Assembly (NCBI GenBank): GCA_017933995.1 | Contig: JAGBKI010000010.1 | Location: forward strand, 1 to 34,108 | Length of the DNA: 34,108 bases | Source: Bacteroidaceae bacterium | GTDB taxonomy: Bacteria > Bacteroidota > Bacteroidia > Bacteroidales > Bacteroidaceae | Direction of reading: 5' to 3' | Part shown: positions 9,622-24,500 of the stretch, piece by piece | How the letters are laid out: each line of letters begins with the position of its first letter | Position numbering within the stretch: the stretch's first letter is position 1 | Translations under genes and position numbers: made by a program | Notes under the pieces: model-generated | Database searches by the model: none | What the model saw: the letters and a program-made list of their open reading frames with translations, nothing else | What the model was told of the DNA's origin: nothing

Positions 9622-12600
9622 ATGAAAAAGACTTTTTTGGTGCTTGCCGCCGTCCTGCTGTCGCTCTGTGAAGCGGGCGCGCAGGTAGTGAGCGAAAGCG
9701 AGGCGCGGCAGGTGGCCGAACGCTTCGTCACGTCTACAACGCCCGCTGGTGTGCGACGCATGCCAGCGGCCACGGCCAAGAGCCTCCAGCTGGCCCACAC
9801 CGCCAGGGTGGGCAGTGAGGCGCCGGAACTCTATGTGTACAACGTCGCCCAGGGCGGCTTCGTCATCGTGTCGGGCGACGCGGCCACGGACAGCGAAGTG
9901 CTGGGCTGGAGCGACACGGGCGTGTTCGATGCCGACAACTTGCCCGACGGCCTGCAATTCCTCCTCGGCAGCTACGCCCGTGGCATTGCGGCCTTCCGCG
10001 CCGAAGCCACGCCCGAGGTGAAGAGCCGCGTGGCCCGCGCGCCGCGCCGCGCCTCGGGCTACGGCTCGGTGGCCCCGATGCTGAAGACCATCTGGAACCA
10101 ATTGGGCTACGACGTGCCGGGCCACTATACGGGCTGCGTGGCCACTGCCGTGGCGCAGTTGATGAACTTCTACCGCTGGCCGCAGCACGGCTACGGCAAC
10201 CACACGAACGTCCACAAGACGTCGCAGAGCGTCGACTTCACGCAGTCCACCTACAACTGGAGCAAAATGCCCACGGGCTATGGCGAAGCCGACGAGGCCG
10301 CTGCCGTGGGCAAACTGATGTACGACATCGGCTGCGCCGTCAATATGCAATACGGCTCCGACGGCAGTTCCGCTTACGACTTCAACGCCTATAAAGCCCT
10401 CGTCAGCAACTTCGGCTACGACGAGGAGTCGCTGGAAATCTACGACCGCTTGGGCAACTACGCCAGCCTCTCCACCAGCGAGTGGGACGCGAAGATACGC
10501 AGCGAACTGCGCGCAGGCCGCCCCGTCTACTACTCTGGCTGCGACACCATCTGGAAGGAAGACTATATCTACGGCCAGAAATACCGCTACATCGACATGA
10601 CCGAGGCCCACGCCTTCGTCTGCGACGGCTTCAGCGACGACGGCCTCTTCCACTTCAACTTCGGCTGGGGCGGTCAGTGCGACGGCTACTACAACACGAA
10701 GGTCATCCGCCCCTTCGGCGAGAACGACAAGTCGCACTCCTACGCCCCCGTCAACGTCTTGATTACGGGCTTCCGCCCCGCCAGCCGTGAGAAGGTGGAA
10801 GCCGGCGGCGCTTACTTCGACCTGGCCGACGACGGCTCGCACGCCATCGTGGCCAGCAGCCCGACCGTCTACGCGGGCGATGTCACCATACCCTCCGAAA
10901 TCACCGTCGAGGGCAAGACCTATCCCGTGGAGGGTGTCCGCTCCTATGCTCTGAAAGAGCGTATTGACGAAACGCAGGCCATCACCAACCTCACCTTTGG
11001 CGCAAAGATTGACGAGTTCCCCCGCAGTCTTTTCGCTAACAACGCCAACATCGAGAGCGTTACGTTCACGGGCGGCGTAGGGCGGCTGGAGAACCAAGCC
11101 TTCATCGATTGCGACAACCTCAAGAGCGTGTCCCTGACCGGCGTCCAGCACATCGGCGAAGAGGCGTTCGCCCGATGCGACAACCTGCAAAGCGTCACGC
11201 TGGGCGAGGGCGTGAAGAGCGTAGGCCGCGCCTCGTTCCGCTATTGCCCCGCCCTCGAAACGCTCACGATGGCCGAGGGGCTGGACAGCATTGCCAGCCA
11301 GGCTTTCGTTGAAGACAAGAAGCTCAACTTCGAAAGCCTGCCCGCCAGCGTGCGCCATCTGGGCGACGAAGCCTTTATGGCCACCGCCGTCGAGCGCGTC
11401 ACCATCCCCACCTCCGTCACCCTCGGGCGCGGCGTCTTTGCCGACTGCACCAGCCTCTCCGACGCCACGCTCGAAGACGGTCTGACGGAAGTGGCCGACA
11501 GCCTGTTCTACAACACGAAGCTCTACTCGCTCGACGTGCCCGCCTCGGTGACGCGCATCGGGCGCCACGCCGTCAACAGCACGAGCCTTTGGCGGCTCAA
11601 GTTCCACGCGCCGAGCTTCGTCATCGAGAACGGTGGCATTCGCGGCGCGAGCGGCATGGAAGTGGAGGGCCTCGACGGCTGCCGCAGCATCGGCGAGCAG
11701 GGACTCTCCGGCCCGACCGGCACGTTCACCGTCAACCCCAAAACGACCTACGCCTCCAGAGCCGTGCAGGGCGACTTCGACAAGATTGTCATCCCCGCCG
11801 CCGTCACCGACTTCGACCCCATCAGCATCCTCTCGACGAAGGAATACGTCGTCGATGCCGCCAACCCCAACTACGCGGGCAACGGTGCCTACCTCTTCAC
11901 CAAAGACATGAAGTGCCTGCTCATCGTTGGCACTACGGAAGGCAACGAACGCATCATCCCCTCCGGTACGGAGAGCATATCGGAACACGTGGGGCTGGGC
12001 AGGTACTACATCTACCTGCCCGCCAGCCTGCAGACCATCGACCAGGAAGACATCTACGGCTACGATGTGCGCACGGTCTACGCCATGAGCCCCGTGCCGC
12101 CCGTCTTCACGAAGCACCCTGGCGCAGCGCACCCTGACTTCGCCCCCTACATCACGCTCCATGTGCCGCAAGGCACTGCCGACGCCTACCGCGCCGCGCC
12201 CGTATGGAAGGAGTTCCCCATCATCGAGGACGACCTCATCGTGGAGGACGCCTTTATATATAGGAACGGCAGCGTCATCGGGCGCAACACCGCTGTGAAG
12301 ACCGGTCCCGACGTGGTGATTCCCGCCACGCTGCTGCTCGACGGCAAGCGTATCCCCGTGACCAACGTCGAGGCCTGCGTCTTCCAGGGCGACCTCACCG
12401 TTGAGACCGTCAAGGTGCCCGCCTTTGTCTACGGCAGCCCCATCTTCAAGGACTGCGCCAACCTGCGCCGCGTCACGCTGGGCGAGGAGCTGCGCGACAT
12501 CTACGGCAGCGCCTTCGAGAACTGCCGCTCGCTGGAGAGCGTGGAGGTGAACGGCCCGCTGCGCTACATCGGCCCTCGCGCCTTCTGGGGTTGCTCGTCG

Positions 12601-24500: not shown

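Follow-up and report, generated by a model that had tools for sequence, protein, structure and literature searches.

Introduction

Cargo of the type IX secretion system (T9SS) is defined by a C-terminal signal that each protein carries in cis, and the surface proteomes of Bacteroidota are predicted from that signal. We describe here a locus in which large secreted proteins lack such a signal and the product of the neighboring gene carries one. The locus lies on contig JAGBKI010000010.1 of a Bacteroidaceae bacterium (assembly GCA_017933995.1); this one whole contig of 34,108 nucleotides is the window analyzed here, and it belongs to a 2.48-Mb assembly of 66 contigs that is 84% complete. Three times in the window, a gene whose product ends in a T9SS C-terminal domain (CTD, or tail) is followed by a gene for a large YVYRND protein (L1, L2, or L3). 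The CTD gene encodes a C10 peptidase once and a 158-residue mini-protein (mini1 or mini2) twice. For brevity, we call the CTD proteins carriers and the tail-less proteins passengers or partners.

Several described systems share features with this arrangement. Like T9SS type A cargo, the minis and the C10 protein combine a signal peptide with a CTD, and their genome encodes the SprA/Sov translocon (2618 bits), PorV, and the PorU sortase; known cargo has its CTD in cis, whereas here the large protein has none and the small neighbor has one. Type B cargo and its PorP/SprF-like shuttle, as far as the available text of two reports describes them (PMC12618676, PMC9143113), are also products of adjacent genes, one of which is needed for secretion and placement of the other. 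That shuttle is an outer-membrane barrel and its cargo has a type B CTD, whereas here a short CTD protein would be the helper and the cargo lacks a CTD. In “hitchhiker” co-export by twin-arginine translocation (Tat), a signal-bearing subunit brings signal-less subunits along (available sections of PMC4273604). This is inner-membrane export, not outer-membrane export by the T9SS. A constant genetic pairing of a tagged and an untagged protein is found here, and the complex itself is predicted from module homology (see below). To our knowledge, Tat hitchhiker export has no dedicated carrier family.

A Paraprevotella locus encodes a CTD protein and a “hypothetical protein” (00502 and 00509) that are both needed for trypsin recruitment; in the accessible part of the report, the authors place both on the surface through the T9SS and describe a CTD for 00502 (PMC9477747). 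Six genes lie between the two in P. clara, and the likeness, drawn from the published description, is a lead only. C10 peptidases with BspA-type leucine-rich repeats (LRRs) are the nearest counterpart of the large carrier, which has Peptidase_C10, Inhibitor_I69, and LRR_5 domains but adds a module and a CTD and is followed by a tail-less passenger. The open-access full-text literature, a corpus with no preprints and few subscription papers, gave no description of tail-less T9SS passengers carried by small CTD proteins. The pairing is real, it is general in the genomes that we examined, and it is undescribed as far as the literature could be searched.

Results

Three cassettes in one contig

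An earlier note, made from the sequence alone, had recognized the layout of the locus, and its open reading frames agree with ours in their coordinates (Table 1), as do the signal peptides, the tail-less YVYRND paralogs, and the arrangement of each pair on one strand with gaps of 86 to 128 bp. These gaps are 86 bp between the C10 gene and L1, 128 bp between mini1 and L2, and 94 bp between mini2 and L3. Because L1 ends 83 bp upstream of mini1, the latter lies between two large genes. The two minis differ at 15 of 158 positions, as the note had estimated, and a 300-nt stretch covering their start regions is 86% identical. No Pfam or NCBIfam family matches L1, L2, or L3 at E ≤ 1, and comparison with structure databases gave no credible solved relative of the large YVYRND proteins.

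Within the organism’s own genome, a search with L2 finds YVYRND proteins in the window only. Further mini cassettes are present on contigs C27, where a 139-aa mini precedes a 978-aa protein, and C14, where one of 137 aa precedes a 432-aa protein; the genes of each pair overlap by 4 bp. Contig C12 encodes a 105-aa CTD protein without a tail-less secreted partner. Positions 1 to 9000 of C27 (L295) also hold a cluster with short-CTD proteins. One of these, of 122 aa, is followed by a 616-aa module protein, and the two are possibly a cassette built with short CTDs.

The pairing is conserved when viewed from either gene

Minis and large proteins were each selected blind to the other gene. Outside the window, genes, starts, and signal peptides were called with a simple caller of our own, which misplaces some starts; L2 itself was called at 17422 in the genus counts and scored there as lacking a signal peptide. 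All counts below are of genes, not of independent events, because related species share loci.

A single contig scan with a profile of the YVYRND N-terminal module (alignment A5) provided 79 named loci, which come from the best 80 of 109 matches and include at least eight contigs already present in our genus sample. They derive from uncultured or metagenomic Prevotellaceae, Bacteroidaceae, Paludibacteraceae, Bacteroidales, Alloprevotella, Prevotella, and Bacteroides, and by their record titles many come from the gut of sheep, goat, yak, deer, or buffalo. Two loci without a gene on the 5′ side (L169 and L207) were excluded, leaving 77. Among these listed matches, 76 of 77 have an adjacent tail gene. 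It lies directly upstream on the same strand in 75, where it encodes a mini in 70 (102 to 238 aa, mostly 150 to 166 aa) and a long protein in five; in L156 the mini lies directly downstream of the large protein instead. Of the 71 adjacent minis, 44 overlap the YVYRND gene by 4 bp, 17 lie no more than 50 bp from it, and 10 are more distant. Neither of two CTD models detects a long or short CTD in any of the 73 complete YVYRND proteins; the other six run off their contigs.

The same picture emerges from the minis. Genus stretches were picked from match lists (contigs with large proteins, the strongest minis, and further full-length minis), and the 57 distinct genus minis are those whose tail our CTD model recognizes, which leaves L062, L119, L121, and L131 uncounted. 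Among the 55 with a downstream gene, 44 precede a same-strand secreted protein with neither a long nor a short CTD. The next gene of the remaining 11 encodes a long-CTD protein (five), a short-CTD protein (one), or a protein scored as non-secreted (three, one of them L2), or lies on the opposite strand (two). When the next gene may lie at any distance and must encode a same-strand secreted protein without a long CTD, 45 of 55 minis qualify, compared with 139 of 340 other secreted and 107 of 312 non-secreted control proteins.

Outside the genus we analyzed 60 stretches, 20 from other genera of the family, for which the strongest YVYRND-like matches were skipped, and 40 from other families, chosen as the strongest full-length minis. 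They contain 63 minis, 60 with a tail by our own models. A secreted protein without a detected tail follows within 150 bp in 56 of the 63, or in 53 by a strict rule that leaves out three partners truncated at the end of a contig or stretch. The same outcome is seen for 48 of 184 other secreted and 33 of 174 non-secreted controls (81 of 358 together; Fisher p = 4e-24) and for none of 11 other CTD genes, and chance adjacency is ruled out by these control genes of the same stretches. Minis also overlap the next gene by 4 bp far more often than other genes do (32/63 versus 15/358, p = 2e-19). Each of the 78 overlaps that we inspected has the sequence ATGA. Such an overlap is a usual sign of translational coupling and suggests that carrier and passenger are translated in a coupled manner. 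The pairing is thus conserved far beyond the species, as the earlier note had proposed to check.

Partners are diverse and lack a recognizable tail

The pairing that the note described between a mini and a YVYRND protein proved to be part of a wider one, with YVYRND proteins as one kind of partner. Outside the genus, the partner bodies (residue 96 onward, n = 55) fall into 21 blastp clusters, of which 12 are singletons that may be distant relatives. Domains among 54 such partners include FISUMP (TIGR02145; 11), Cthe_2159 carbohydrate-binding (12), CotH (3), Calycin-like (3), and lamin-tail (2) domains, together with single cases of C10 peptidase, GH43, and SusD-like proteins (NCBIfam and Pfam). 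One partner in L276 is SusD-like, a family of surface lipoproteins. Genus partners include a sulfatase-modifying-factor-like domain (L100) and a weak GDSL match (L096).

The T9SS sorting family TIGR04183 is found in 0 of 54 and 0 of 51 partners scanned; alignment A8 comprises 54 of 56 listed partners, and alignment A9 the three window proteins plus 48 of the 79 named ones. Applying a model of short CTDs, which are 40 to 51 residues long in Prevotella intermedia according to the part of PMC11969387 available, led us to remove one genus partner (L061) from the tail-less proteins. Four loci (L063, L093, L094, and L095) share a recurrent three-gene variant, in which a mini is followed by a 591- to 608-aa protein with its own CTD and then by a tail-less 470- to 474-aa module protein. 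A comparison of this operon in L063, L093, and L095 with the Omp28-type Paraprevotella protein gave no Omp28 match.

The minis carry a T9SS tail

The signal peptide, the module of about 55 residues, and the sorting domain that the note had assigned to the minis can all be mapped in mini1. Its description of the last as a perfect sorting domain was too strong: a tail is present, and TIGR04183, the only Pfam or NCBIfam family to reach its cut-off in the window minis, does so with 25.3 and 23.8 bits against a cut-off of 23. Pfam Por_Secre_tail scores 16.1 and 15.8 (cut-off 27), and the tail of the C10 protein stays under both cut-offs (TIGR04183, 20.4; Por_Secre_tail, 18.5). At the family level the tail is clear, with TIGR04183 found in 103 of 107 mini homologs (E ≤ 0.01), the CTD motif G.[YF] in 107 of 107, and a basic residue near the C terminus in 106 of 107. 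A hydrophobicity test finds an N-terminal signal peptide in most minis; the exceptions are due in part to misplaced starts.

Against solved T9SS CTD chains, the mini profile gives weak matches (8glk, 1.4e-5; 8glj, 0.0075; the gingipain CTDs 7pq4, 0.08, and 5hfs, 0.13). The best-scoring solved chain is an unrelated designed propeller (7bie, 6e-8), and no single stretch passes alone. Residues 1 to 52 of a solved glycosidase (6d2w chain A) match the mini signal peptide and the first half of the module (E = 1.5e-4), so that the half-module may occur on enzymes too. Searching PHROGs with mini1 gave one weak, unnamed match.

Mini and partner modules are homologous as pooled profiles

In alignments of unrelated partners, the clearest common feature is a stretch directly after the signal peptide that ends in DSIxF. 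A profile of this module trained on genus partners matches 46 of 59 partners outside the genus at E ≤ 0.01, along with 22 of 72 CTD proteins, 0 of 199 non-secreted proteins, and 2 of 159 other secreted proteins; the last two (L253 and L256) are minis whose tail our own model missed. In the reverse direction, within the genus, the same threshold yields 37 of 45 partners, 20 of 331 other secreted proteins, 2 of 337 non-secreted proteins, and 6 of 87 CTD proteins.

Pooled mini modules and pooled partner modules align over 53 columns with a probability of 93.4% (E = 2.5e-7), compared with 0.2% for internal partner segments and 0.1% for unrelated secreted N termini. At E ≤ 0.01, partner profiles match 55 of 119 mini modules and 3 of 76 unrelated N termini, and mini profiles match 39 of 105 partners and 2 of 76 unrelated N termini. 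We also scanned 13 genomes with the partner module, which gave 40 matches at E ≤ 1e-6. Five are minis; the other 35, tallied by hand, comprise 27 that touch a CTD gene, one that is second in such an operon, and seven that lie apart.

Fusion, fission, and possible exchange of carriers

The module and CTD of the window C10 protein share 39% identity with mini1 (E = 8e-20). Since the C10 protein ends in a mini-like module and CTD, one may regard it as an enzyme to which a mini has been fused. Fused carriers of this C10 type also occur in L198, L199, L201, L206, and L208; the proteins of L198, L199, L206, and L208 match the I69/C10 part of the window protein at 37 to 52% identity, and that of L201, whose 5′ end is cut off, matches its LRR part. 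The split form exists as well: a gene for a tail-less C10/LRR protein comes right after a mini gene in L267, with an overlap of 4 bp, and right ahead of one in L062.

Among the 79 listed loci, the five closest relatives of L3 are the passengers of the five C10-type carriers (34 to 55% identity). In the window, L3 follows mini2, and the C10 carrier precedes L1, a mini-type passenger. The simplest reading is that L1, mini1, L2, and mini2 ended up between the members of an ancestral C10–L3 pair, in which case carriers would be exchangeable. We ruled out that the mini is a recent remnant of a C10 gene, a case that the earlier note had named as one that would speak against its proposal, since the mini family is widespread in both family and order.

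Minis track the T9SS translocon

At E ≤ 0.001, an initial mini profile has matches in all 58 genus genomes, with long proteins that match by their tail only counted as well. A wider profile at E ≤ 1e-12 finds minis in 110 of the 199 family genomes (13 of 22 genera) and in 41 of the 198 order genomes (33 of 147 genera); apart from the organism’s own genome, all were drawn at at least 90% completeness. When the two draws of 199 family genomes are treated as identical, minis are present in 109 of 136 SprA-positive and 1 of 63 SprA-negative genomes, such that SprA accompanies 109 of the 110 mini-positive ones. The exception, G105, has five mini matches and no SprA match in a genome rated 100% complete, possibly because of an assembly gap or loss of the translocon.

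Other features of the window

The gene directly 5′ of the C10 carrier encodes a Kelch and AraC-type protein, probably a membrane-spanning one-component regulator. Homologs occur in 23 of 79 YVYRND loci. In 21 of them the carrier gene follows immediately, with about five of these 21 matches being short and weak (94 to 135 aa). The predicted peptidase itself matches Peptidase_C10 (PF01640) at E = 8.7e-50.

Table 1. Coordinates of the cassettes and the adjoining regulator gene in the window
Feature	Coordinates	Strand	Remarks
Kelch and AraC-type helix-turn-helix (HTH) protein	7204..8931	+	Directly 5′ of C10 carrier; Pfam HTH_18 and Kelch
C10 peptidase	9622..13722	+	I69 propeptide, C10 domain, LRR_5 repeats, then module and T9SS CTD (Pfam); large carrier before L1
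C10 protein, C-terminal part	13297..13719	+	Module ~13297-13476, T9SS CTD ~13477-13719; fused equivalent of mini, by alignment with mini1
L1, 954 aa, tail-less secreted YVYRND protein	13809..16673	+	N-terminal module ~13869-14088
mini1, 158-aa carrier	16757..17233	+	Signal peptide 16757-16813, module 16814-16999, CTD 17000-17230
L2, 975 aa, tail-less secreted YVYRND protein	17362..20289	+	N-terminal module ~17458-17676
mini2, 158-aa carrier	21194..21670	+	Near-copy of mini1; module 21251-21436, CTD 21437-21667
L3, 911 aa, tail-less secreted YVYRND protein	21765..24500	+	N-terminal module ~21852-22082

Two repeats lie 5′ of the C10 gene and together resemble a repetitive extragenic palindromic (REP) element: an inverted repeat with 79-nt arms (8924-9002 and 9064-9142, 90% complementary) and a 67-nt direct repeat (9092-9158 and 9392-9458). 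A 72-nt direct repeat, 83% identical, covers the mini2 leader (21126-21197) and is found again beyond L3 (25747-25818), just 5′ of a KilA-N gene on the opposite strand. The mini1–L2 intergenic sequence (17234-17361) is GC-rich and palindrome-like, and a GC-rich stretch in the L2 signal-peptide region (17362-17460, encoding LPPRRGRVGVG) resembles it. PIN-domain genes (VapC-like toxins) are found on the minus strand between L2 and mini2 (20430-20837) and at 6273-6674. A secreted alpha-galactosidase with an NPCBM domain and a C-terminal DUF6383 match is encoded at 29729-32047.

Discussion

We propose that these loci are two-gene T9SS cassettes in which the mini provides, in trans, the T9SS signal for a partner docked onto it, an explanation that, on the sequence evidence, we consider probable. 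The putative carrier, a mini of usually 130 to 180 aa or a C10 fusion, has a signal peptide, a module of about 55 to 60 residues, and a type A T9SS CTD. The passenger also has a signal peptide but no CTD, and in most families its mature N terminus holds a related module. Both carry signal peptides and would enter the periplasm by the Sec route, and the ATGA overlap observed between their genes may couple their translation. In the periplasm the two modules would bind each other, as their homology, the constant pairing, and the gene overlap lead us to infer. With the modules bound, the carrier CTD could take the passenger through SprA/Sov with PorV. PorU would then cleave off the CTD, and the mature carrier, about 60 residues long, may be joined to surface polysaccharide or released and would hold the passenger non-covalently. 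To judge from its domains, the passenger would do the actual work: carbohydrate binding, adhesion, or proteolysis. The earlier note’s suggestion that the mini serves in trans as carrier or anchor is thereby supported, although not proved, given that the pairing is conserved, the mini is not a C10 deletion, the pooled modules are homologous, and the mini tracks the translocon.

A number of observations weigh against this proposal. The link that the note had drawn between the beta module of the minis and the YVYRND module holds for pooled profiles, whereas the YVYRND module alone does not match the mini module significantly (2.9%). When we looked for co-variation specific to the module, the mini module and the CTD predicted partner type about equally well (130/140 and 127/140). 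Seven of the 35 strong partner-module matches touch no CTD gene. Among the 27 that touch one, eight belong to the sequences from which the profile was built; once these eight are taken out of the 35, a CTD gene is touched by 19 of the 27 matches left. The pairing has gaps: one YVYRND locus in 77 (L150) has no mini, six of 55 genus minis precede a tailed protein, and seven of 63 minis outside the genus are without the expected partner (L219, the first mini, with a miscalled start; L242, at 166 bp; L246; L253; L271; L275; and L277). Six of 12 long CTD genes in the genus also precede a secreted protein without a long CTD, which means that this outcome is not rare in the genus stretches. The tail-less C10 partner in L267 begins with an I69 propeptide rather than a module. 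Finally, only 50 of 107 minis contain GI, the predicted PorU site, so that the cleavage point is uncertain; a GI-type cleavage motif is described for P. intermedia in the section of PMC11969387 available.

The mini could act as an anchor only, a T9SS-displayed receptor or peg for a passenger that surfaces by another route. The pairing data fit this equally well, and a predicted mature mini that is little more than the module (62 residues from signal peptide to GI in both window minis) would suit a peg. We nevertheless regard it as unlikely: general scans of the partners, which included no dedicated search, turned up no other outer-membrane export family, and a simple lipobox pattern occurs in just 3 of 79 YVYRND proteins and in 0 of 58 partners outside the genus. 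Alternatively, the two genes may be co-regulated neighbors that work separately, with the mini as an independent small surface protein and the module as a general Bacteroidales leader domain. The 20 other secreted genus proteins that match the partner module, the seven module proteins apart from any CTD gene, and the missing module-specific co-variation are in line with such an arrangement, yet the pairing persists across 21 partner clusters, and outside the genus the only two other secreted proteins to match are themselves minis; we see only a small chance that it applies.

A role as a periplasmic assembly or quality-control factor, whose CTD only docks to the translocon or attachment complex, would suit the presence of one mini per passenger, and CTD-retaining, complex-associated proteins are reported (PorU, PorZ, and PorA, in the available portion of PMC12541887). 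With the CTD motifs in place in practically every mini and a fused C10 version that is a whole enzyme, we find this very improbable. That the large proteins carry a T9SS signal of their own that went unrecognized is scarcely tenable: CTD lengths do vary, as the short P. intermedia domains illustrate, but the long and short CTD models are negative in the 73 complete YVYRND proteins, TIGR04183 is absent from all 105 partners, and few columns are conserved in the YVYRND alignment toward its C-terminal end. On the strength of the three negative models, we rejected an unrecognized CTD as a candidate.

Returning to the trans-acting carrier, we lean slightly toward a broader version, in which a general split-cargo T9SS route exists throughout Bacteroidales. 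A dedicated family of minimal carriers would export and display dozens of tail-less proteins, unrelated to one another, by way of an N-terminal module that matches the carrier's; carriers and passengers would be exchangeable; and after maturation hardly more than the docking module would remain of the carrier, linked by the sortase to polysaccharide at the surface. The carrier idea can already be tested with the next-gene rule and the module profile. If it is true, SprA/Sov can pass a non-covalent complex, and the exchangeable module pair would be usable for protein display. Prediction from the CTD would then miss many tail-less carbohydrate-binding, adhesive, and hydrolytic surface proteins of gut Bacteroidales.

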